A DNA stretch of 64,000 nt from Bacteroidota bacterium (lineage in GTDB: Bacteria; Bacteroidota; Rhodothermia; Balneolales; HLUCCA01): assembly GCA_020832235.1 (NCBI GenBank), contig JAFIEZ010000015.1, positions 1-64,000 on the forward strand, written 5' to 3'. The notes beneath the pieces were generated by a model. That model saw nothing but the letters and a program-made list of their open reading frames with translations, was not told where the DNA came from and did no database searches. Shown one piece after another: positions 2,092 through 15,929 of this stretch. Numbering within the stretch: the first letter of the stretch is position 1; each line of letters starts with the position of its first letter. Both the position numbers and the translations under genes were made by a program.

Positions 2092-2289
2092 GCGTTTAAC
2101 CGGCTCAAAACCGGAGAATCTACAGACAGCTCCTAAGCCATCAGGTTTATCTGGAAAAACTTAGGCACAAACCGGAAGGGGAAATGCAATCAACGCCTCC
2201 CCTCCACAAACACTAACTACATTTTGGAAATCACTGGTCAGCTTTGGAGCAGCTTGATCAGGCTGTGACCACATCGTTACGAGGTGGAC

Positions 2290-3477
2290 ATGTCAGCATT
2301 CGCAGACTTTAACAGGATTAACACAAACGTTCAGGCTCTGGATGCGGGCCGAGTGTTAAATCGAACCAACCGCGATATTTCGGTTAATCAACTTAGCCTC
2401 TCTACCGGTAAACGCATAAATAGCGCAGAAGACAATGCTTCTTCTTATGCGATATCGGTAAAGCTACGCGGCAGAACCGAAGGACTCATCACAGCACAAC
2501 GAAATATCGCTGACGCGATTTCGGTACTTGGAATTATGGAGTCGGGCTTTGGCACCATAACCGACAACCTCACCGAAATGAAATCCCTGGCAACACAAGC
2601 GGCTACTGACAGCCTCGGGGAGGCGGAACGACGGTTGATTGGTGCTCAGATTTCCGGACTGGGCGATTCTCTCAATAGCACAGCTGAACAGACTGTTTAC
2701 CAGGGGATTGAATTGCTGAAGGGATTCGAGGGGGGCAATACTGGTGCGCTGGAACTCATTTTTCAGGTCGGTGAGCGATCCGTTGATACCCTCACGAGTT
2801 ATATTCGTGCGGTTAATGTCGGGATGCTATTCAACGGCGCGGGACAGAACAATGCTGCAGGTGACGATCAGCTAGGTGCCGAGGCAGACCGAATTACGGT
2901 CACCCCACTTGCTATGATAACCGGACTGAATCCGGGCAGGCTGGACATTGCTGACAACGCAGATGCTCAGGATTATCGCGTATTTATGTCGGCGGTGGAT
3001 GAGGCTCTTGGCGGCATGATTTCTCGCACGCAGGATGTTGCCAATGCCAGTAAGTCGTTATCGGTTCGGGAGCAAGTTGTTGCGCAGAGTATTGCAGTGA
3101 GTCAGCAGGCGGTAAGTCGACTCATAGACACCGATTTTGCCAAAGCTCAGAGTGAGCGGGTGCAGCTGCAGATATTACAGGCTACATCGTCGGCCGCTCT
3201 GGCCCAAGCCAATGTAAATCCTGCTGCGGTGCTGGACTTGATAAGCCAGCAGAACATGAGCGCTGTCCGCAATGGAGGTGGTGGAGTATCGGCCAATGGT
3301 GGGAGTGGATCTGCTGATAGCGGGGCCGTACGAACCGGTGCCGGAAGCAGTAGCGGCTGGCCACCGCCATTAGCGGGGGAGTCACGCGAACCCATACCCG
3401 TAGCCGGCATCGACATCGACTGGCCACCCGACCTCGCCTACAAGCCAGAACCCAACGACTGGCCCCCGAGTTTGTGA
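2290..3477 (+). CDS. Flagellin with long C-terminal tail (third copy)
   Basis: Flagellin paralogue of 395 residues from the ATG at 2290. An in-frame GTG at 2284 is possible, but the ATG aligns with the start of the second flagellin (MSAFADFNRINTN against MSSFGDINRINTN) and has GAGGTG just upstream. The N- and C-terminal D0/D1 helices are recognisable but divergent (AEDNASSYAIS; VQLQILQATSSAALAQANVN). Ordinary flagellins stop a few residues after this point. Here a tail of about 75 residues follows: a Gly/Ser/Ala linker, then three Trp-Pro-Pro motifs near residues 357, 378 and 391, ending WPPSL. The flagellin C-terminus normally faces the narrow filament channel, so the tail implies a special role (cap-proximal, minor or assembly-limiting subunit) or a fold that exposes it. 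Confidence 0.9.
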   Translation: MSAFADFNRINTNVQALDAGRVLNRTNRDISVNQLSLSTGKRINSAEDNASSYAISVKLRGRTEGLITAQRNIADAISVLGIMESGFGTITDNLTEMKSLATQAATDSLGEAERRLIGAQISGLGDSLNSTAEQTVYQGIELLKGFEGGNTGALELIFQVGERSVDTLTSYIRAVNVGMLFNGAGQNNAAGDDQLGAEADRITVTPLAMITGLNPGRLDIADNADAQDYRVFMSAVDEALGGMISRTQDVANASKSLSVREQVVAQSIAVSQQAVSRLIDTDFAKAQSERVQLQILQATSSAALAQANVNPAAVLDLISQQNMSAVRNGGGGVSANGGSGSADSGAVRTGAGSSSGWPPPLAGESREPIPVAGIDIDWPPDLAYKPEPNDWPPSL

Positions 3478-3553: not shown

Positions 3554-6500
3554 TTAACTTACTACCGTTTTAGAAATTTGTTGAAAATGATTAAAAGCCA
3601 TTTTTTTGATTTGTGCAAATATTAGATTAACCATTGCAATATCATTTTCTGTTGTTCCTGGTCCATAAGTTGACCTATAACTTCCTCCAACTCTACTCAT
3701 TAATTCTGTTAATAGATTTTTATGATTTATGGTTTCCGGTTTGAACGGCAAATACTTGTCGTCATCTATAGATTTTATCCCCCCGCAAAACTCGAAATCT
3801 ATGAACAGTATTTTTTCATTAGACACTAATATATTTTGCGGTTTCAAATCATTATGTGTATAACCTATTTTATGCATTTTTTTAACAGATTCAATAATTT
3901 CGTCACAATATTTCCAAAATATTTTCCAAAATTCTATTTCTGTAGTTTGATTCATCTTTTGAATAAAGTAATCAACAATATTTATTCCATTTACCCATTC
4001 AGTAGCTAAAACGCTTCGACCGTTAACAATCCCTGAAAATAAAACTTGTGGACATGATAAATCATTCCCATCTATAGTTTTATTCATTTTTATCTCATTA
4101 TCTATTAATTGATTGTATAAGGAGTTATCAAACAACGTTGTCTTAATGAAAAACTCATCAACTTTGAACGCTATCTTATCTGCGTTTTTATAGACTAATC
4201 CTATACTTTTTAGATCATCAATATTTTTACATCTTTCGATATCATTCACTAGTTTATATACAACATCATTTAGATTTCTTTTTGCCACATATAGTGATCT
4301 GACTTCCCCGACGTTATTAGCTTTTTCTGAGTAAACTATACTATAATCACTACAACCGCATAAAGACAGGAATTTATGAATACTTTCTATCATAGAAGAT
4401 TCCGGAAAGTAAGCTTGGATAGAAGATGATGGTTCGTATATAATATATTTCACATTATTTATTACTGGTCTTAATAATTTTGCAACCGTTTCAATCGATC
4501 CATTATCGTACTGTAACCAGTGTTGCACACTATTTAGCACTATTACGTCGAAACCACCATACTGCAAGTTCAGCTTAGTGAGGGCATCCCGAGTTATTCT
4601 ACCACAATAGAAATCTGCATTTTTAATTCCGTGAACAGCTTTTAAACTTTTTGCTATTTTTACAGCACTAATATCGTGATCAATTCCACAGCACTTATCT
4701 GCAACAGTAGCTATGCCAAATGTAAAAAAACCTAAATTGCATCCTAAATCAAGAACCTTAAGACCTGCAAAATCTATTGAAGAAAGTATTGCATTAAGTC
4801 TGCCCGACGATGACGATCGGTGTGTCCCAAATTCTTCATAACCTTTAAATGGTATTTCATGGTATATCTTTTTTGCATCAAGTGAGCTTCCAAAAACCGT
4901 GGGCACACTTTTGTTAGCTAGATACTGTTTTAATTCTTTTTTACTACTGAAATAATCTACATCCTGAAATAAGCTGTCTACAGAATAATACTTATTCTTA
5001 TAATCATTATTCTGAATAATTTTTAATCGTTGATTGAACAAACTCCTGTCTTTTGCATTTCCTCCTCCTGTTAATCCTTTACTAAAATCTACCTCTAGCA
5101 AAGTGATTTTAGGATTATACTCTAACATGTTTTGGATTGATGCAATTACCGTTATTTCATCATCAGCACAGTGCGATTTATATTGACTAAAAAGAATAGC
5201 CTCGTCATATATCTGGTAAATCCAACTCTTACGAACCATGCCAAATGAAGCTATATTCCCTTGCCATTTTCCATCATTAAATGCAAGTAGTCCTTTCCCC
5301 GTTCGTTCTAAATCTTCATACGCCATTTTCAACCAATTCATCCCCCCAAATGCATCTTGCGCAATATAAACTACATATTTGACATCTGCCTTACGAGCGG
5401 TTTCATTTAGTACCTTAATGAAACCCCAACCCAAAGTATCAACTGCAATTATAATTTTGCATTTCATGCCAGCACGTCCTAGCAATTGTTTAGCACATCT
5501 AACACCAGCTTGAATATCAATGCATGGCATTATAACAGCCACACCGTTTACATCTTTGTAGGAATAGCCATTGATGTCTTTAATGTCTATTAAATCAATA
5601 CTTTCACTCAAGTAGTTATCAAATCTGTCATTATTGACAGAGTCTATTTCAACATTCTTATTTTCCTGAACTTCTACTAGGTTAATTGCAACTTCAGGAT
5701 TATCAACTAAAACTGAACGTAATTTATCTTCTGTTTCCCCACTCAAATACCCCGTCAAATCCTTTAACGCGAGCCATGACTCAATCGTACGCACCATCAT
5801 CCATTTTGCAAGGTCGGTTCGTATGGGGGCGCTATCCATAGCTTGTATGGGCAGAAGGAAGGGTAGAGCCACATCCATATTGTCCTGACCCATTTTGCTG
5901 TCCTGCATCAACTTTTGCATAATGGCTACAGCCTGGTCTCGTTTCCCGAGCGTATTCATTACCCGTATGAGCGTCATCGCCACGGATGCACCGCCTTCAC
6001 CAGTATTGTATTTTGAAATTAACTCCTGCGCAGCTACCAATAGCAACGTAGCTTTTTGTGATCTCAGGATCCTATCCGAATTGCCTTCTAGTTTACTATC
6101 CTGATTAGGTTTTGAAAGATTTTCTCCTTGATTAGTATCATCTCCTTTTACCTTTGAAGCCAAATCTTCCGCAGCACATATATAATCCAATGCGCGGTAG
6201 TAGTTCTTATTACCCGGCACCATAGACTGTTTTTCCCAATCGGCAAATAACGTTTCCGTCCACGGCATAGCTTTCAACGTTTTTTTCCAGTAGCCAAGCT
6301 CTGGCTCAGTTACATCGGCATTCTCATCATGAATCCAGCCTTGTTCTGTTAACGCAGCTACCCTATCAGCCTTCACCGCAATTACATTCTGTGCATAGGC
6401 ATCTCGCTGCGACCAATCCTCAACCGGACTCAGAACCCCTACTCCGCCTATGAAATCATAAAAAACAAACTCTTTTTCGGCGAGATAGTCTACCAAAGCA

Positions 6501-9400
6501 GTGGAAATATCACTAGTGGAAAGTATCAGAACCGGTGACTGTTCTGCCAAAACGCGTTCGGCACTTTTTAAAACATCGAACTCTTTGCCATTTACATCGA
6601 CCTTTAGAACATCTATCTCCGGGTTTCCTTCAAAGTCCCACCAACTGTCGAGCGTCACAACCTGAACATCGTTTCCATCCGTCTGAAGAACCGTTAATTC
6701 AGGTGTCGAAGTTGAGCTCAGACCACGCTTTCCGGCTTCATTTCCTAACGCTCTGCCAATGACTTCCAGACTGGTAAGTCCATTTTCAACTTTGCTGATA
6801 TCCAAATGCTTTCGCATGAATGTCACCGGTTCAAAAGCAAAAACCTTCCCGTCCGAACCAACTTTACGAGCGGCTGGCAGAGCATACGCACCAAATCCTG
6901 CACCAATATCCAGTACATTCATCCCCTCCTGGAGGAAATCTGTTATAAAATCGACTTCCGAATCGAACCACTGCCCCTGCTCCAGCATCACGTAGGTCGA
7001 CATCACCTCAATACTACCAGGCACACTGTAAATTAGATTGCGTTGCCCGGTCACCAGCAGATTCTCGTGGTTGCCACGCTTCCAGTTAAAACGAGCTACT
7101 TTTGCGATTTCTTCATCAGTCGACCATGAATTGGTTTCGTTGATTACCGGTGCACTACCTTGGCCAGATAAGGCCGGCGCGGGCACATCGTTACCCATCG
7201 CAGAGACATCGTTACCCGCCACCGGCAGTTCGTTACCAGGCGCAGAGACATCGTTACCCGCCACCGGCAGTTCCTCGCCCATCGGCCGCATATCGCTACC
7301 CACCGCAGCAGATACAGCAATATGATCTTGCTTAAGGCGGCCCTCGATATACGCGTGCCACATCTGGCGGAAGGCGTCGCTCAAAGCTGCGCCGAAGCGC
7401 TCGCCGTCGCACAGGGGCGAGGTCGCTACCTGATCGCGCAGGCGCGTACGGAGCCCGGCGAGTGCCGCCAGATCCCCGGCCAGCCCGGCCGCCACATCAA
7501 CGTAGGCATCCCACGAATCCGCTACCATCTCGGGCAAACCCGCATTCCGCAAATGGGTCACCGAGTGCCGCCCCGCAAAGGTCGGACCTGCATAGGTCAC
7601 CACAGGCACGCCCTGCCACAGGGCCTCGCACGTGCTCAATCCACCCGAATACGGCCACGGATCGAGCGCAATATCTACCTTCGCGTACGCCGCCAGCAAG
7701 TCCTCATGCGGCGACCGTCCTTCAAATATCACACGATCCCGACCAATACCGGCATCCGAAAGCGCCCCAAGAATGCGCTCCTGAAACTCCACACTATCAT
7801 ACTGACCACTTTTCAAAAACAGCTTACTTCCCGGAACCCGCGCCAACAAACGCCCCCACTGAGCCAACAACACCGGATTTATCTTGCTCGGATTATTAAA
7901 GCACCCGAACGTCACAAATCCATTCTCGACAGCCGGCAGCGCCGAAACTTCGGGAGCATACGCCGGAGGCATGAAACAGATATAATCATCGGGCATGCGA
8001 ACCAGCTTCTCGGTGTAGAAATCCTCCACGCCTTCGGGCGTTTCGTGCCAATCGGAGAGCAGGTAGTCAACCGAGCGCAGTCCCGTGGTGTTGAACAACC
8101 CCCCCACCCATTTCATAATGACCGGCGCCGGCTCCATAGCCACCGCCCGCAATCGGTTATCCCCGGCATGTCCCGAAAGCTCCACCAGGATGTCAATTTC
8201 ATCTTCGCGAATCATCTTCGCCACCACCGCGTCGTTGAATCCAACTACCGACCTCCATTTATCGGCACGGGTTGCGATACGCTGGGTAATTTTATCGTTA
8301 ATATTGTTGTTGGTGTAGCAATAGACTTCGAATTCCTCACGAGGCATTTCTTCCAGTCCGCGGGTAATCATCCAGCCCACCGGGTGCGACCGGAATCCGC
8401 CCGATACAAATCCGACACGAAGGCGCTTGGTGGGAGAGCAATCGGAAGGAACAGGACGCTCAGGACGCTCAGCGGGAGCAAAGGTCTCATCCCACTTCTT
8501 GTGGGCTTCAAAAATGTATTCGCGGGTGCGCTCCGGATTGTAATGCATCACCATGAGGTAATTGCTCATGGCTTCCATCATCGTGGGTGGATAATCCAAC
8601 GCACGCAGGTATTCCTTCTCGGCCTCGTCGTAGCGACCCATCTCCTGCAGGCAAAGTCCGTAGTTTACGCGCACACCCGGTATACGCGGATTATCGTCGA
8701 GTACTTCTTTATATAAGGTGATGGCCTCGTCGTATAGTGACTGATCTTTCTTCGAGTCGGCCAGCAGCGACCGGCCTTCCACACTATTCGGATTTCGTTG
8801 GAGGAAGTCGCGCAACAGCGCATCAGACTTCTCAAAATCGCGAGTTTTAATTAGTGCGGAGGCCTTTTCAATCACCGGGGCATGGTAGGTAGCGTCCATC
8901 TGAGCGGCAATATCAAACAGCTCAATGGCTTTATCGAAGTTGCCCAGATTGCGATATACAAGGGCAATATTAAACGCGATAACCGCATTACGTGGATCCA
9001 GCTGATTCGCCCGGGCATAAACCTGCAGCGCCTCCTCGAGACGGGCCTGCGCCTGAAGAATGAGTCCAAGATTGAGCAGGGCCTTCACAAAATCAGGTCG
9101 CATCTGAATAGCCTGCTTGGCAAAAGATTCCGCTTCGGCATAGTTTTCCAGCTTATACAAGGCTACCGACAGCGTGTGAAACGTCTCCGGCTCGGTACTG
9201 CCACCGTCTAACGCGTTGCGCATGGCCTCAGCACAGCGCTCATGATCACCCAAAAGTGCGTACGCCACTCCGGCAAAATGGTAAACCGGCCAAGGCTCCT
9301 GGCCTGTTTTCATGAGGGGCTTTAACTGGGCCAGCGCCTCAATAGGTTTCGGATTTTTACGGTCTAACAGATTCTGGGCGCGTTGAACTTTTGCTTTCAC
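3554..9400 (-). CDS. Giant TPR / GT41 / FkbM / GT-A / WbdD-like multidomain glycan-modification enzyme
   Basis: A single 1948-residue open frame with six recognisable parts. Residues 1-300 are TPR repeats. Residues 326-690 are a SPINDLY-type O-GlcNAc transferase (GT41), with FVSGGFRSHPVGWM, a VELSGHAGDNRL motif and PWPYSGGLSTCEALWQGVPV. Residues 705-750 are a low-complexity linker with a 14-residue repeat. Residues 755-1010 are an FkbM-type methyltransferase (VLDIGAGFGAYAL, FAFEP, DVLKVDVNGKEFDVLK). A helical spacer covers 1030-1240. Residues 1285-1440 look like a GT-A sugar transferase (YIAQDAFGGMNWLKMAYEDL). Residues 1500-1935 have the order and motifs of WbdD: SAM methyltransferase (VLDLGCNLGFFTFG, GID, GRI) then kinase (K1753, E1769, HNDLKPQN 1849-1856, DFE 1868-1870). 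It lies beside the flagellins and has a sigma54 promoter like the flagellar operons, so flagellin is the likely substrate (inference). The DNA for residues beyond about 1240 is markedly AT-rich. Confidence 0.85.
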   Translation of the reverse strand: MKAKVQRAQNLLDRKNPKPIEALAQLKPLMKTGQEPWPVYHFAGVAYALLGDHERCAEAMRNALDGGSTEPETFHTLSVALYKLENYAEAESFAKQAIQMRPDFVKALLNLGLILQAQARLEEALQVYARANQLDPRNAVIAFNIALVYRNLGNFDKAIELFDIAAQMDATYHAPVIEKASALIKTRDFEKSDALLRDFLQRNPNSVEGRSLLADSKKDQSLYDEAITLYKEVLDDNPRIPGVRVNYGLCLQEMGRYDEAEKEYLRALDYPPTMMEAMSNYLMVMHYNPERTREYIFEAHKKWDETFAPAERPERPVPSDCSPTKRLRVGFVSGGFRSHPVGWMITRGLEEMPREEFEVYCYTNNNINDKITQRIATRADKWRSVVGFNDAVVAKMIREDEIDILVELSGHAGDNRLRAVAMEPAPVIMKWVGGLFNTTGLRSVDYLLSDWHETPEGVEDFYTEKLVRMPDDYICFMPPAYAPEVSALPAVENGFVTFGCFNNPSKINPVLLAQWGRLLARVPGSKLFLKSGQYDSVEFQERILGALSDAGIGRDRVIFEGRSPHEDLLAAYAKVDIALDPWPYSGGLSTCEALWQGVPVVTYAGPTFAGRHSVTHLRNAGLPEMVADSWDAYVDVAAGLAGDLAALAGLRTRLRDQVATSPLCDGERFGAALSDAFRQMWHAYIEGRLKQDHIAVSAAVGSDMRPMGEELPVAGNDVSAPGNELPVAGNDVSAMGNDVPAPALSGQGSAPVINETNSWSTDEEIAKVARFNWKRGNHENLLVTGQRNLIYSVPGSIEVMSTYVMLEQGQWFDSEVDFITDFLQEGMNVLDIGAGFGAYALPAARKVGSDGKVFAFEPVTFMRKHLDISKVENGLTSLEVIGRALGNEAGKRGLSSTSTPELTVLQTDGNDVQVVTLDSWWDFEGNPEIDVLKVDVNGKEFDVLKSAERVLAEQSPVLILSTSDISTALVDYLAEKEFVFYDFIGGVGVLSPVEDWSQRDAYAQNVIAVKADRVAALTEQGWIHDENADVTEPELGYWKKTLKAMPWTETLFADWEKQSMVPGNKNYYRALDYICAAEDLASKVKGDDTNQGENLSKPNQDSKLEGNSDRILRSQKATLLLVAAQELISKYNTGEGGASVAMTLIRVMNTLGKRDQAVAIMQKLMQDSKMGQDNMDVALPFLLPIQAMDSAPIRTDLAKWMMVRTIESWLALKDLTGYLSGETEDKLRSVLVDNPEVAINLVEVQENKNVEIDSVNNDRFDNYLSESIDLIDIKDINGYSYKDVNGVAVIMPCIDIQAGVRCAKQLLGRAGMKCKIIIAVDTLGWGFIKVLNETARKADVKYVVYIAQDAFGGMNWLKMAYEDLERTGKGLLAFNDGKWQGNIASFGMVRKSWIYQIYDEAILFSQYKSHCADDEITVIASIQNMLEYNPKITLLEVDFSKGLTGGGNAKDRSLFNQRLKIIQNNDYKNKYYSVDSLFQDVDYFSSKKELKQYLANKSVPTVFGSSLDAKKIYHEIPFKGYEEFGTHRSSSSGRLNAILSSIDFAGLKVLDLGCNLGFFTFGIATVADKCCGIDHDISAVKIAKSLKAVHGIKNADFYCGRITRDALTKLNLQYGGFDVIVLNSVQHWLQYDNGSIETVAKLLRPVINNVKYIIYEPSSSIQAYFPESSMIESIHKFLSLCGCSDYSIVYSEKANNVGEVRSLYVAKRNLNDVVYKLVNDIERCKNIDDLKSIGLVYKNADKIAFKVDEFFIKTTLFDNSLYNQLIDNEIKMNKTIDGNDLSCPQVLFSGIVNGRSVLATEWVNGINIVDYFIQKMNQTTEIEFWKIFWKYCDEIIESVKKMHKIGYTHNDLKPQNILVSNEKILFIDFEFCGGIKSIDDDKYLPFKPETINHKNLLTELMSRVGGSYRSTYGPGTTENDIAMVNLIFAQIKKMAFNHFQQISKTVVS
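7201..7273 (-). repeat. 42-bp tandem repeat in linker of giant enzyme
   Basis: Two 31-bp identical blocks (7201-7231 and 7243-7273) at a 42-bp period encode the repeated ELPVAGNDVSA(P/M)GN unit between the GT41 and FkbM domains. Partial further units flank them. An in-frame period of 14 residues lets copy number change without breaking the frame, so linker length may vary between strains. Confidence 0.85.
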
Positions 9401-9450: not shown

Positions 9451-9466
9451 TGCAAAAAAGATGCCA
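9451..9466 (-). promoter_or_regulatory. Sigma54 promoter of the giant enzyme gene
   Basis: Minus-strand TGGCATCTTTTTTGCA matches the -24/-12 consensus TGGCAC-N5-TTGCA, with the invariant GG and GC exactly 10 nt apart. The -12 edge is 51 nt from the ATG at 9400, the same spacing as at flgB (51) and flgF (52), which links this gene to the flagellar sigma54 regulon. Confidence 0.8.
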
Positions 9467-9876: not shown

Positions 9877-10197
9877 ATGATTAAGAATCCACATTTAAAA
9901 TATCAGCAGCAAACCGTGCTCAACGCATCCCCGATGAAAATCGTGGTTAAACTCTACGATCTTGCCATACAAGCGAGCTGGCGGGAAGATGACAAGCAGT
10001 TGCGGGAAATTCTTTCCACCCTCATAAAAGGACTCAACTTCGACTACGAAATTTCGGGTCAGCTGTTTTCCTTGTACCAGTATTGTCAGGAATTGGCCCG
10101 CAAGGGTGAGTTTCAAGAAGTACGGGAACTGTTGGAACCGCTGCGTGACGCGTGGGAGCAGGCTGCAAGTACCTCTCCCATTGCTGTAGGACAATAA
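9877..10197 (+). CDS. fliS: Flagellin export chaperone FliS
   Basis: Small cytoplasmic chaperone that binds the C-terminal helix of newly made flagellin and delivers it to the export gate. The 106 residues begin with the family signature (YQQQTVLNASPMKIVVKLYDLAIQA, residues 9-33), followed by three further amphipathic helices. It is slightly shorter than typical FliS (about 120-135). It is followed by fliD, the usual partner, 188 nt downstream. No strong Shine-Dalgarno motif precedes the ATG. Because one flagellin here has a tail beyond the FliS-binding helix, this FliS may have to handle an internal rather than a terminal binding site (inference). Confidence 0.85.
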   Translation: MIKNPHLKYQQQTVLNASPMKIVVKLYDLAIQASWREDDKQLREILSTLIKGLNFDYEISGQLFSLYQYCQELARKGEFQEVRELLEPLRDAWEQAASTSPIAVGQ

Positions 10198-10384: not shown

Positions 10385-11767
10385 ATGAGTATCTCATCCA
10401 TCATCGCCAAAAACAACCCGTTCGAGGGCTTCGTACAGCAGCTCGTCCAGCTCGAGAGCCGTAATAAAATTCAGCTTCAGCAGCAGCAGGCCGCGCAGCG
10501 GGAGCGTAAAACCGCCCTCACGGATGTTAACAATGCGGTGAAGAAGTTCACCGAAAACCTGGAGGCCTTACGAAAAGAAGATGGTCCCAACCCATTCTCT
10601 CCGTTTTCGAACTCCGTTTCCAACGATAAAGCGGTACGTATCAACAGCGTAAATAATTTCAACAACGCGGCTAGTTTCAATCTGAATGTGGAGCGATTGG
10701 CTACCAAAGACATTGCCCTTACGCAGGTTATGAATCGAGAGGGCAACGAACTGGCCACAACCGGGGAAGGAAGCGTAACCATTACTATTGGTGACGTAAC
10801 CGAAACGATTACCATCGATACTACCGACAAAACCAATGCGGAAGTACTTGAAGCACTGGCTGCATCCATAAACGAAACCTTCGGTGAGCAGGCAGGGGCC
10901 TCCCTTTTCAACGTGAACAGCGACGAGATCCAATTCTCCATGAAGTCGAACGAGAGTGGTTTTGAAAACCGAATTCAGTTCGATGGATTTACCGGTGATC
11001 TGGCAGCGCTTGATATCACTAAATTGGCGCCGGAGAATGAACTGGATGCACGGTTTACGATTGACGGAGTTACGTTCACAAGAGGCAGTAATCAGGTAGA
11101 TGATGCCATTAACGGTCTCAGCTTTACTATGCTGCGCGCCTCAGAAGACACGGTAACGATGGATATTACCCGTGATATTGAAGGTGCACGAAAAAAGGTA
11201 GATGAATTCATTTCGTCTTTTAACAACGTTAACAGAACTATACGTGACCGTACATTTCTGGATGCAGAAAACGACCGCCGTGGTCCTCTGCAGAATATGC
11301 GGGTGGTACGTAACCTGACTGTAAATCTGCGTCAGATTGGTATTCTGCCCGACGGTGCCGCCGGTGAGGGTGATATTTCCCGCCTCTCAGATATCGGTAT
11401 TGAGTTTGAGCGGAATGGTACCATGAAAGTTGGTGATTCTGCTAAACTAAACGAATTTCTGGAAAGCAATCCGGATGCGTTGCAACGATTCTTCACATCA
11501 GAGGATAGTCCCATTACGGCGATGCTCAACGAAGCAAAATCGTATACTGAGCCTAAAACAGGTCTTATTGCGACATTAACCGACGGCGTAGACCAGCGAA
11601 TAGATAACCTGGGCCGACGAATTAGTCAGCAAGATCGTTTTCTGGCACAATATGAGGAAAGACAGCGGGCCGAATTTGCAAAACTTCAGATGATTATTGA
11701 TCAGGGCCAGCAGCAATTTGCTGAAATCATGGCGTTCCAGGGTCAGTTTATGGGAGGACGTTTCTAA
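10385..11767 (+). CDS. fliD: Flagellar filament cap protein FliD
   Basis: Cap protein (hook-associated protein 2) that sits at the filament tip and folds incoming flagellin. The 460 residues show the FliD layout: N-terminal helical region with Gln-rich coil (IQLQQQQAAQRERKTALTDV), a FlgE-like variable centre (about residues 75-270), and a C-terminal helix pair (LGRRISQQDRFLAQYEERQR, AEFAKLQMIIDQGQQQF). The N-terminus NPFEGFVQQLVQLE replaces the common GLxSGLD-type start but is positioned the same. Upstream are fliS and a structured leader with an AACACAACAAC motif; downstream lie two small flagellar-type genes. The start is the ATG at 10385. Confidence 0.93.
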   Translation: MSISSIIAKNNPFEGFVQQLVQLESRNKIQLQQQQAAQRERKTALTDVNNAVKKFTENLEALRKEDGPNPFSPFSNSVSNDKAVRINSVNNFNNAASFNLNVERLATKDIALTQVMNREGNELATTGEGSVTITIGDVTETITIDTTDKTNAEVLEALAASINETFGEQAGASLFNVNSDEIQFSMKSNESGFENRIQFDGFTGDLAALDITKLAPENELDARFTIDGVTFTRGSNQVDDAINGLSFTMLRASEDTVTMDITRDIEGARKKVDEFISSFNNVNRTIRDRTFLDAENDRRGPLQNMRVVRNLTVNLRQIGILPDGAAGEGDISRLSDIGIEFERNGTMKVGDSAKLNEFLESNPDALQRFFTSEDSPITAMLNEAKSYTEPKTGLIATLTDGVDQRIDNLGRRISQQDRFLAQYEERQRAEFAKLQMIIDQGQQQFAEIMAFQGQFMGGRF

Positions 11768-12946: not shown

Positions 12947-14356
12947 ATGAACGGTCGAGTAGTACTGATTGACGACGATAATCTGCTTATTTCCTTTATG
13001 GAAGAGCAGCTTACACTTAACGGGTATTCAGTTAAGGCGTTTGTTTCGCCGGTCGATGCCATGGACTATCTCGCAGAGAATAAAACCGATCTGGTGGTCA
13101 CCGATGTCAAAATGAACGAAATGACCGGTGATGAAGTCCTCGATAAAATCATGAGCGACCACCCCGACATAGGCGTTATTCTTATCACAGGATTCGGTAA
13201 TGTTAACCACTCGGTTAATGCTATGCGTAAAGGGGCCTTCGACTACATCACCAAGCCTTTTACCCCACAGGAATTTTCGTACCGCATCAAACGCTTCTTC
13301 GATAACCGGTCGAACGGTGAACAAACTCAGAAGCAAGGCCATACCTCCGCTTCTACAACTTCCGCTCCACGTAAGGAACTCCGCGAACAAACCGCCTATG
13401 TGAGCAAGTCGAGCGGCAGCGAACCTAATACCGTGATGGTCGGCGAAACGCCCACCATGAAACGCCTCCTGAGCATCCTGCCTAAAATCGCCCGAAACGA
13501 TGCCCCCGTACTCATCCAGAGCGAGAGCGGGACCGGTAAGGAAGTCTACGCAAAATTATTGCATCTGAACAGCAACCGGGCAACGGGTCCATACGTCAAA
13601 ATCAATTGCGCAAACCTGCCTACCGAACTGGTTGAAAGTACGCTTTTTGGCCACATGAAAGGTTCCTTTACTGGAGCTATAGCCGATAAAAAGGGAGCCT
13701 TTGATGAGGCCGATGGCGGTACTCTCCTGCTCGATGAGATTACCGAAATCGATATCAACGTACAGGCAAAACTGCTGCGCGTGTTGCAGGAAAAAGAATT
13801 TCAGCGGGTTGGAAGTCAGAAACCTACCAGTGTGGATGTGCGCATTATTGCCACATCCAATCGAAATATAGCTCAGGCTATAGGTGATGGTGACTTCCGG
13901 GCCGACCTTTACTACCGCCTCAACGTTTTCCCAATTACCATCCCGCCTCTGCGCGAACGTCGTGAAGACATCCCCCTGCTCGCCAACTATTTTTGCGACA
14001 ACTATACCGAGCAGTATAATTTGCCGAAAAAGCAGATTTCTGAGGAGTTAATGCAGAATCTGGTTCAGCGCGAGTGGAAAGGTAATGTTCGGGAGCTGGA
14101 TAACCTCATCCATCGCGGTGTAATTCTGTCTAATGAAGAAACCGAAGTCGGCGTCGACCATGTGGATAATAATATGTTCTCGGGCGTTGACCACCAGATG
14201 GGTCGCGAAGTGCTTTCTGACCTGCCGCTGATGCCTATTGAGGAAATGGAGCTGCAGCTGATTAAAAAGGCTCTGGAGCGCACCGGTGGCAATCAGAAAG
14301 AAGCTGCCAAGATTTTGGGTATTTCCGACCGAACCATCCGCAATAAGCTGAAATAA
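12947..14356 (+). CDS. NtrC-family sigma54 activator, flagellar master regulator candidate (FlrC/FlgR-like)
   Basis: 469-residue response regulator. The receiver domain (1-118) has acidic pocket D9-D11 and phospho-acceptor D53. The central AAA+ domain (about 168-400) has Walker A (SESGTGKE), a sigma54-contact loop with Ser for Ala (GSFTGA), Walker B (GTLLLDEI) and the arginine-rich sensor region (RADLYYRLNVFPI). The C-terminal Fis-type helix-turn-helix (GNQKEAAKILGISDRTIRNK) ends right after NKLK, a little shorter than usual. It would activate RNA polymerase with sigma54 (RpoN not in the window). Four sigma54 promoters stand before flagellar operons here, so this is the obvious activator. A likely partner kinase lies at 49984-51036. 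Function as flagellar regulator is inferred from context; the family is certain. Confidence 0.93.
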   Translation: MNGRVVLIDDDNLLISFMEEQLTLNGYSVKAFVSPVDAMDYLAENKTDLVVTDVKMNEMTGDEVLDKIMSDHPDIGVILITGFGNVNHSVNAMRKGAFDYITKPFTPQEFSYRIKRFFDNRSNGEQTQKQGHTSASTTSAPRKELREQTAYVSKSSGSEPNTVMVGETPTMKRLLSILPKIARNDAPVLIQSESGTGKEVYAKLLHLNSNRATGPYVKINCANLPTELVESTLFGHMKGSFTGAIADKKGAFDEADGGTLLLDEITEIDINVQAKLLRVLQEKEFQRVGSQKPTSVDVRIIATSNRNIAQAIGDGDFRADLYYRLNVFPITIPPLRERREDIPLLANYFCDNYTEQYNLPKKQISEELMQNLVQREWKGNVRELDNLIHRGVILSNEETEVGVDHVDNNMFSGVDHQMGREVLSDLPLMPIEEMELQLIKKALERTGGNQKEAAKILGISDRTIRNKLK

Positions 14357-14591: not shown

Positions 14592-15929
14592 TCAGATGTC
14601 GCCCAGTACACTGAGTCCGCGGAAGATGGCCTTTGCTTCGTTAAGCCGCTTGGTTTTGGATAATCCCGCAATCAGCGCCCGCCGATAATCCGGATTAGCC
14701 GGGTCCACCTCGAATAGCTTGATGAAATGATCTGTGGCGTAATCGTACCAGTCCTTTTGCATAAACATCTGCAGGCTATCCATAATTTCTTCCCTCGACT
14801 CATCGTCTAATCCGTTGGGAATGAGCTGGCCGTAGAGTACTTCAAAATAGTAGGTAGATTTTTTAAAGTTGTTGAGCTCCACAGCAAACACGAACAACAG
14901 CTTGATGTGCTGCTGATCTACAGCGCCTTGCCTGAAATGAAATATCTGCTCATAGTAACGGAACGCTTCCTCGCGCAGACCAGCCTTAAAGGCCATATCC
15001 GCAAGTTGTAACAACAGCGTTTCTGATGCCATCCCTACGTCGAATCCGGCCCGTGAAGGCCAGCCCGCCAGGGACTTGAAATCTTCCAGGGCATTTAAGG
15101 CTCCTTTCCAGTTTTTTTCCAGCTGATAGATCCGGAACTGAATAAGGTATGGAAGGTACTGCTGTGCTTCCGCTTCAATTGATTGTCGGGCCAGATCGAG
15201 CGCCTGCGACCAGCGGTGTTGCTCCGCCATACTGCTGGCCAATCCGTTAATGGCTGCCAGTCGATCAAACGGCAGCACGTGCTCGCGTTTAAGCAGGGAG
15301 CGATAGGAGGCTGCTGCTTCAACGTAACGACCTTCATCAAAATATTGTTTCCCCATAACAAGGTAGGCTTGCATGGGGGTTTTCAGTGCCGAAAACTCCT
15401 CTTCCGGAGCAACAGACTTATATAACGGGGTTGTTCTGCGTATAGGCAGGACAAAGTCGCGCATTTCCAGGTTCAGATTGTAAATGGTTCGTGTGGCATC
15501 GGGCAACATCAAGCCTGCAAAAACGTCCGTTATATTGCGGCTTCGTAAGTTGGGCAGAAATCGAACCTGATAATAGATCTGACGTTCACCCCGGTCGGCG
15601 GTCTGAATTCGAACAGGAAAAAAGCTACCGGCATCCATCTGATCCAAATCGGGCATATGATAGGCATCAAAGCGCTCGTCATCTTCCAGAAAAAGCGTGT
15701 AACCGGTGTTTACCTCCTTCAGAATATCATTCCACACAGCGGTTTTACTTTCATCAGATGCATACTGGGTAAGCTGCGCACCTTCCGGTACCACTTCTTC
15801 GGGTAATTCAGGAGACAATATGTGCACTTCGTGGGCCATTTCCAGCCATTGTTTCACGGCATCACCGTCAACAAAACGGGGATCGGTCACAAAGTGTATA
15901 ATGGCTAAATCTTGTTTCTTACCCTCCAT
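14592..15929 (-). CDS. Glycosyltransferase-like / TPR protein at end of flgKL operon
   Basis: 445-residue soluble protein. The first 120 residues resemble the start of a GT-A fold: a beta strand (LAIIHFVTDPRF), then YTLFLEDDERFDAYHM with an acidic DxD-like triplet at residues 82-84, and strands continuing to about 170. The remainder (about 180-445) consists of TPR-like helical hairpins (YFDEGRYVEAAASYRSLLKR, LDLARQSIEAEAQQY). The ATG at 15929 has a good ribosome-binding site (AAGGAGA). It is the last gene of the flgF-flgL operon, 75 nt after flgL. Similar GT/TPR proteins modify flagellins in other phyla, so a filament glycosylation role alongside the giant enzyme is plausible (inference). The GT region is short, so it could also be a non-catalytic scaffold. 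Confidence 0.6.
   Translation of the reverse strand: MEGKKQDLAIIHFVTDPRFVDGDAVKQWLEMAHEVHILSPELPEEVVPEGAQLTQYASDESKTAVWNDILKEVNTGYTLFLEDDERFDAYHMPDLDQMDAGSFFPVRIQTADRGERQIYYQVRFLPNLRSRNITDVFAGLMLPDATRTIYNLNLEMRDFVLPIRRTTPLYKSVAPEEEFSALKTPMQAYLVMGKQYFDEGRYVEAAASYRSLLKREHVLPFDRLAAINGLASSMAEQHRWSQALDLARQSIEAEAQQYLPYLIQFRIYQLEKNWKGALNALEDFKSLAGWPSRAGFDVGMASETLLLQLADMAFKAGLREEAFRYYEQIFHFRQGAVDQQHIKLLFVFAVELNNFKKSTYYFEVLYGQLIPNGLDDESREEIMDSLQMFMQKDWYDYATDHFIKLFEVDPANPDYRRALIAGLSKTKRLNEAKAIFRGLSVLGDI

Follow-up and report, generated by a model that had tools for sequence, protein, structure and literature searches.

A predicted flagellin glycosyltransferase of Balneolales with a conserved chassis and apparently exchangeable C-terminal cassettes

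What does a single polypeptide of 1948 residues, carrying several glycan-modifying domains, do beside a set of flagellin genes? The gene lies at 3554-9400 on the minus strand of the window (the whole 64,000-nucleotide stretch that was analysed; positions are given in it throughout unless a relative's locus is named) and is a single uninterrupted open reading frame with a GTG start. Its nearest named relatives are found in Balneolales (Bacteroidetes bacterium HLUCCA01, Balneola sp. and Gracilimonas mengyeensis). As the first-pass annotation had described, three flagellins, all candidate substrates, stand next to it on the plus strand: one at 116-817 whose N-terminus is lost at the contig end, a second at 1132-2091, and a third at 2284-3477 that is convergent with the giant gene. 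The third flagellin also has an extra Gly/Ser/Pro-rich stretch of ~77 residues past its normal C-terminal end (3244-3477, plus strand), which is odd for a part packed inside the filament. The annotation had proposed a six-module enzyme that attaches a sugar, methylates it, extends it and caps it with a methylated phosphate.

Five of these six modules scored over Pfam cut-offs. The N-terminal TPR domain (residues 1-290, 8531-9400) matches Pfam TPR families and is predicted to dock flagellin by analogy with FlmG (PMC7591256). It is followed by a GT41 glycosyltransferase of the SPINDLY/OGT type (residues 312-690, 7331-8467; Pfam Glyco_transf_41, 138 bits), a variable and mostly unconserved linker with short repeats (residues 695-790, 7031-7318), an FkbM-family methyltransferase core (residues 829-961, 6518-6916; TIGR01444, E=3e-21, and PF05050, both over cut-off) and a conserved helical domain (residues 1105-1238, 5687-6088). 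Further toward the C-terminus are a class I methyltransferase resembling that of WbdD (residues 1540-1645, 4466-4783; Pfam match over 1545-1645, E=7e-16) and a kinase core (residues 1764-1880, 3761-4111; Pkinase over 1764-1876, E=3e-8). All of these are encoded on the minus strand.

The sixth module, a GT-A-like glycosyltransferase at residues 1285-1440 (5081-5548, minus strand), did not fare as well. Its best evidence was a Pfam Glycos_transf_2 match at E=0.07-0.08, under the cut-off; there was no clear DxD, no meaningful match in PDB or PHROGs, and nothing was found when its profile was compared with the GT2 tails of relatives. AlphaFold2 models made from the single sequence, without an alignment, had pLDDT values of 37 for residues 1258-1497 and 34 for residues 1492-1948, which made them unusable for fold search. 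A GT-A module here is possible; because the segment is unproven, the proposed extension of the sugar is left without support.

For the GT41 domain the assignment is firm. It carries the conserved His, Lys and donor-loop residues, in the motifs HPVG (H339), SGH (H411), SK506 and GGL(S/T)T, and retention of H339, H411 and K506 in 29-30 of 30 relatives argues that the assignment is not due to chance. In phmmer searches of PDB it lay about equally near to SPINDLY (7y4i, E=8e-102) and to an OGT-like protein of bacterial origin (5djs, E=6e-93), which leaves UDP-GlcNAc and GDP-fucose as candidate donors. A nonulosonic acid is an improbable donor, since NeuB was not found in this genome (97% complete); 9 of 14 control genomes were positive. 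The chemistry of the chassis FkbM domain is uncertain as judged from its motif: DxNG replaces the usual DxEG in ~23 of 30 relatives (6569-6610, minus strand; residues 931-944). The second FkbM domain found in some relatives retains DxEG in the sequences read.

The kinship of the C-terminal part with WbdD and kinases, claimed for residues 1500-1935, was borne out. The best PDB match to residues 1491-1948 is WbdD (4azw, E=2e-8), a single collinear alignment covering both methyltransferase and kinase, and the same residues are also collinear with plasmid genes annotated as WbdD and WbdD-like. The catalytic Asp of WbdD, D351 (PMC3482155), corresponds to D1851 in the catalytic loop HND1851LKPQN, and an IDF metal-binding motif is present. 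The likeness does not extend to the whole of WbdD. In the alignment, which is weak, Y230 stands opposite Leu and W355 opposite Gln; retention of the catalytic Asp together with loss of these two acceptor-positioning residues would fit an acceptor other than that of WbdD. Residues 460-708 of WbdD follow its kinase and form a coiled-coil ruler, on which its control of chain length depends, and a region that binds the polymerase WbdA (PMC3482155), and here no such region exists, the protein stopping at 1948, ~70 residues past the kinase core. WbdD, the chain terminator of E. coli O9a, phosphorylates first and then methylates the phosphate (PMC3482155). No other genome searched, 394 of the phylum among them, yielded a WbdD-like tail of this kind, and none turned up in the viral contigs and phages scanned; a plasmid scan returned only distant collinear WbdD-like genes.

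Comparison with relatives brought out a feature that was absent from the first-pass annotation and that we consider more important than the WbdD-like half. As read from the alignments, a cassette that can be exchanged makes up the C-terminal part and is attached to a conserved chassis running from residue 1 to ~1238 (TPR-GT41-FkbM-helical). Across 30 relatives, with chassis identities of ~40-85%, the four chassis domains are conserved up to residue ~1238, and beyond it nothing is. The FkbM part is shortened or more divergent in a few relatives (L039, L040, L043, L045 and L127-L129). The sister genome G002 shows the junction most sharply: it is ~80% identical up to residue ~1230 (TPR 84%, GT41 89%, FkbM 73%, helical 81%) and has an unrelated tail from the same residue onward, DNA homology stopping at gene nucleotide 3708 (residue 1236; 5687-5693, minus strand), beyond which GC drops to 32%.

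Tails of the 30 relatives were sorted by Pfam and mutual BLAST into about ten classes. A second FkbM domain is the commonest (seven relatives), followed by GT2 plus methyltransferase, GT56, GT4-like, and GT2 plus GT4 (three relatives each), a kinase joined to a nucleotidyltransferase-like part that was read by eye and had no profile match (two relatives), and an APH-type kinase with or without a methyltransferase (two relatives, L034 and L045). Others are single cases, and the WbdD-like tail occurs in this genome only. Sister chassis bear different tails (the window gene and L033; L136 and L054, 80% identical, L054 being Gracilimonas mengyeensis DSM 21985 with a GT56 tail; L126 and L037, 82-85%), and the same tail class recurs on distant chassis. 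On the GT41 tree, 11 tail labels require 17 changes when the minimum is 10, and yet they remain more clustered than shuffled labels (21.4 changes), as expected of cassettes that are inherited and sometimes exchanged. Within the open reading frame GC falls from 55.6% in TPR-GT41 to 47.4% in FkbM-helical and 32.3% in the tail, and third-position GC from 63% to 45% to 25%; tail GC was below GT41 GC in all 25 relatives compared. Purifying selection acts on the tails of relatives, with pN/pS of 0.15-0.32 in six pairs of them. Synonymous divergence of tails relative to neighbouring genes, a comparison affected by GC differences, gave no clear sign of recent transfer. A shufflon-like store of silent cassettes was also considered; it receives no support because the helical domain at the junction occurs once in the genome. 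Two relatives have a second gene downstream of the main one, of 920 aa, with the chassis FkbM-helical part and a GT4-like tail (L119:4810-7569 and L122:4279-7038, both on the minus strand).

The gene belongs to flagellar biology. Its divergent neighbour is the flagellin chaperone gene fliS (9877-10197, plus strand; Pfam FliS, E=2e-12), followed on the plus strand by the filament cap gene fliD (10385-11767) and by the cluster's own sigma-54 activator, of NtrC type and conserved in relatives (12947-14356). A match at E<=1e-60 is present in 39 of 129 genomes of the order. When 60 relatives were searched both for the gene and for FliD over its cut-off, the flagellar form of the gene was found in 15 of 20 FliD-positive and 0 of 40 FliD-negative genomes (Fisher p=3e-10, a 31%-identical GT41-only protein of G031 not being counted). 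Five FliD-positive genomes are without a chassis. One flagellated relative without it has instead 1277-aa FkbM-GT2 and 475-aa GT2-TPR proteins before its flagellins (L137:2305-7424, plus strand), another type of fusion in this position. A flagellar cluster surrounded the gene in all 33 Balneolales relatives examined, so that homologues are anything but confined to places away from flagellar loci. In the window, flgL and the NtrC regulator have beside them, as in most relatives, a protein of 445 aa that matches TPR families weakly (14592-15929, minus strand); its residues 1-150 match no Pfam family and look GT2-like by eye (LFLEDDERF), which makes it a candidate for another flagellar glycosyltransferase.

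Regulation points the same way. A perfect -24/-12 sigma-54 promoter-like site, TGGCATCTTTTTTGCA, precedes the gene at 9451-9466 on the minus strand, ~50 bp upstream of the GTG; the first-pass annotation had noted a flagellar-type promoter. A sigma-28 type promoter was searched for and not found. Two more perfect sigma-54 sites occur in the window, before flgF (23598) and before a rod-protein gene (49770). In 15 of 33 relatives a site with no more than one mismatch lies near the start, and several others have the variant TGGCATTTTATTTGT. Window-wide, 10 one-mismatch sites were found where 5.65 were expected, a count that is not significant alone; the argument thus rests on position and recurrence.

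Gene order of this kind speaks for association with the flagellum and not for a particular acceptor, and the enzyme might act on FliD or on a hook protein. In Listeria, GmaR is a glycosyltransferase coupled to flagellar gene control, and by analogy the target here could be another axial or regulatory flagellar protein, such as FliD, FliS or an assembly regulator. The near-invariant neighbour is indeed fliS-fliD and not a flagellin gene: the pair lies divergently upstream in 32 of 33 loci, within 700 bp in 30, and in L124 the gene sits between the NtrC-type regulator and fliS-fliD/flagellin. However, flagellins are downstream in 19 of the 33 loci, and the contigs or examined stretches of the others often end too soon. 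In four relatives from Proteobacteria (Alcaligenaceae, Brenneria, Bordetella genomosp. 7 and Aidingimonas) the gene directly adjoins flagellin and has C-terminal extensions, GT2 and GT56 among them, the tails are accompanied by sugar-nucleotide pathways typical of surface glycans, and their diversity suits an exposed surface. We therefore regard a target other than flagellin as unlikely. Proteobacterial GT41 proteins linked to flagellin (L059, L060, L061 and L062) have in common a domain of ~250 aa near the C-terminus, without a match in Pfam; two of them continue beyond it with GT2 or GT56.

The neighbours of each tail class give clues to what the tails might do with flagellin as acceptor. 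Behind tails that would transfer special sugars lie sugar-nucleotide genes: those for a DegT aminotransferase and a hexapeptide acyltransferase after GT56 tails, and those for DegT, an NTP transferase and WbqC after GT4 and GT2+GT4 tails. Where a tail would require nothing beyond SAM or ATP, flagellin mostly comes next or after one gene; the APH tails are an apparent exception. Four non-flagellar GT41 relatives have tails of just 5-13 aa. One may ask whether the chassis acts on flagellin while the tail serves other glycans (lipopolysaccharide or exopolysaccharide) and is fused just for co-expression. GT56 enzymes have a role in O-antigen or enterobacterial common antigen synthesis. WbdD likewise works in O-antigen synthesis (PMC3482155), which lends this idea some weight. 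In contrast, every tail class is fused to the chassis, tails stand under a flagellar sigma-54 site, and in four genomes the GT56 module is on a separate protein that adjoins a shorter chassis and has its own TPR, related to that of the chassis. Such a protein suggests that TPR docking brings each module to flagellin, and we judge a tail devoted to other glycans to be quite unlikely. That the WbdD-like tail is a recent, non-functional acquisition is very improbable: its very low GC (32%) and its occurrence in a single genome of those searched would allow it, but it has more than 700 intact codons with methyltransferase and kinase catalytic motifs kept, other tail classes are under purifying selection, and the low-GC tail of the sister genome is matched at 50% identity by a homologue from another family.

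We consider it likely that the protein is a cytoplasmic flagellin O-glycosyltransferase built of a chassis and an interchangeable cassette, its late steps being swapped by recombination. The N-terminal TPR would bind cytoplasmic flagellin monomers ahead of export, GT41 would add the first sugar to Ser/Thr from a nucleotide sugar other than a nonulosonic acid, and FkbM would O-methylate that sugar. The C-terminal cassette, tethered near the same acceptor by the shared polypeptide, would then perform a strain-specific last step. Here the kinase of the WbdD-like tail would phosphorylate the sugar and its methyltransferase would methylate the phosphate, in the WbdD order, and in relatives the cassette would supply a further methyltransferase, a kinase, a glycosyltransferase or a pair of them. 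Recombination that replaces cassettes at a fixed point after residue ~1238 would change flagellar surface chemistry in one event. Our more specific and more tentative proposal, to which we give somewhat less than an even chance, is that the gene is a fixed-site, in-frame module-exchange locus, where recombination rewrites the flagellar surface (phospho-methyl, extra methyl, amino-sugar or multi-sugar) and where a WbdD-type methyl-phosphate cap is placed on a protein glycan.

Several known systems resemble parts of this design. FlmG of Caulobacter crescentus is a TPR plus GT-B flagellin glycosyltransferase whose TPR has been shown to bind flagellins; it shares the N-terminal TPR, the GT domain after it, the flagellated organism and the cytoplasmic flagellin modification (predicted here), whereas it has only 596 aa without tailoring modules such as the FkbM and methyltransferase-kinase parts seen here, and uses pseudaminic acid made with NeuB, which this genome does not have (PMC7591256). 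The enterobacterial flagellin glycosylation islands of De Maayer and Cowan (PMC4875605) have SPINDLY-type GT41 proteins beside flagellins, mostly fused to methyltransferases, and variable tailoring genes. Variation there was reported mainly between separate genes; here the C-terminus is exchanged within one polypeptide, and kinase and glycosyltransferase modules are in the exchanged part. WbdD shares the order of methyltransferase and then eukaryotic-like kinase (PMC3482155), and differs in not being fused behind a GT41 chassis. The K. pneumoniae single-chain O-polysaccharide machines, O7 ORF6 and O12, carry several GT modules per polypeptide, in an order that varies between serotypes, and O7 ORF6 has a methyltransferase-kinase terminator in the same chain (PMC11231755). 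They make lipid-linked O-polysaccharide with a coiled-coil ruler, in contrast to the protein O-glycosyltransferase start and flagellar cluster here. For the product, there is a precedent in C. difficile type A flagellin (PMC4441256), where a flagellin GlcNAc bears a phosphorylated, N-methylated group and so carries both phosphate and methyl. In that case threonine holds the methyl, and the part of the abstract that was covered describes no comparable single fused enzyme. Literature naming both WbdD and flagellin appears, by title, to concern other matters.

TPR-GT flagellin transferases, GT41-methyltransferase fusions and multi-module O-polysaccharide chains with a methyltransferase-kinase (PMC11231755) were thus already known. 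As far as we have searched, two features are new: the exchange of whole C-terminal catalytic cassettes in one flagellin-linked polypeptide, and a methyltransferase-kinase cassette at that C-terminal position. If the proposal is true, it offers a single-gene route to flagellin glycan diversity, and a single gene may determine the flagellum's chemical 'coat'. Variation falls mainly on the portion that would make the outermost groups, as selection by flagellum-binding phages, grazers or immune receptors would lead one to expect. The ~ten natural chimeras also pose the question of whether a TPR-docked, tethered enzyme can gain new chemistry by a tail swap, which is directly useful in glycoprotein engineering. 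For this genome the prediction is a methyl-phosphate on the flagellin glycan, with a sugar + CH2 + HPO3 + CH2 attached to Ser/Thr.

Two further observations concern sulfate. The gene behind the GT2+methyltransferase tail of L125 belongs to a sulfotransferase family (L125:10805-11527, plus strand; Pfam Sulfotransfer_2, E=3e-11), and in L124 a gene that looks by eye like a sulfotransferase, without a Pfam match, abuts the chassis gene (7095-8117, minus strand). Sulfated flagellin glycans are conceivable.
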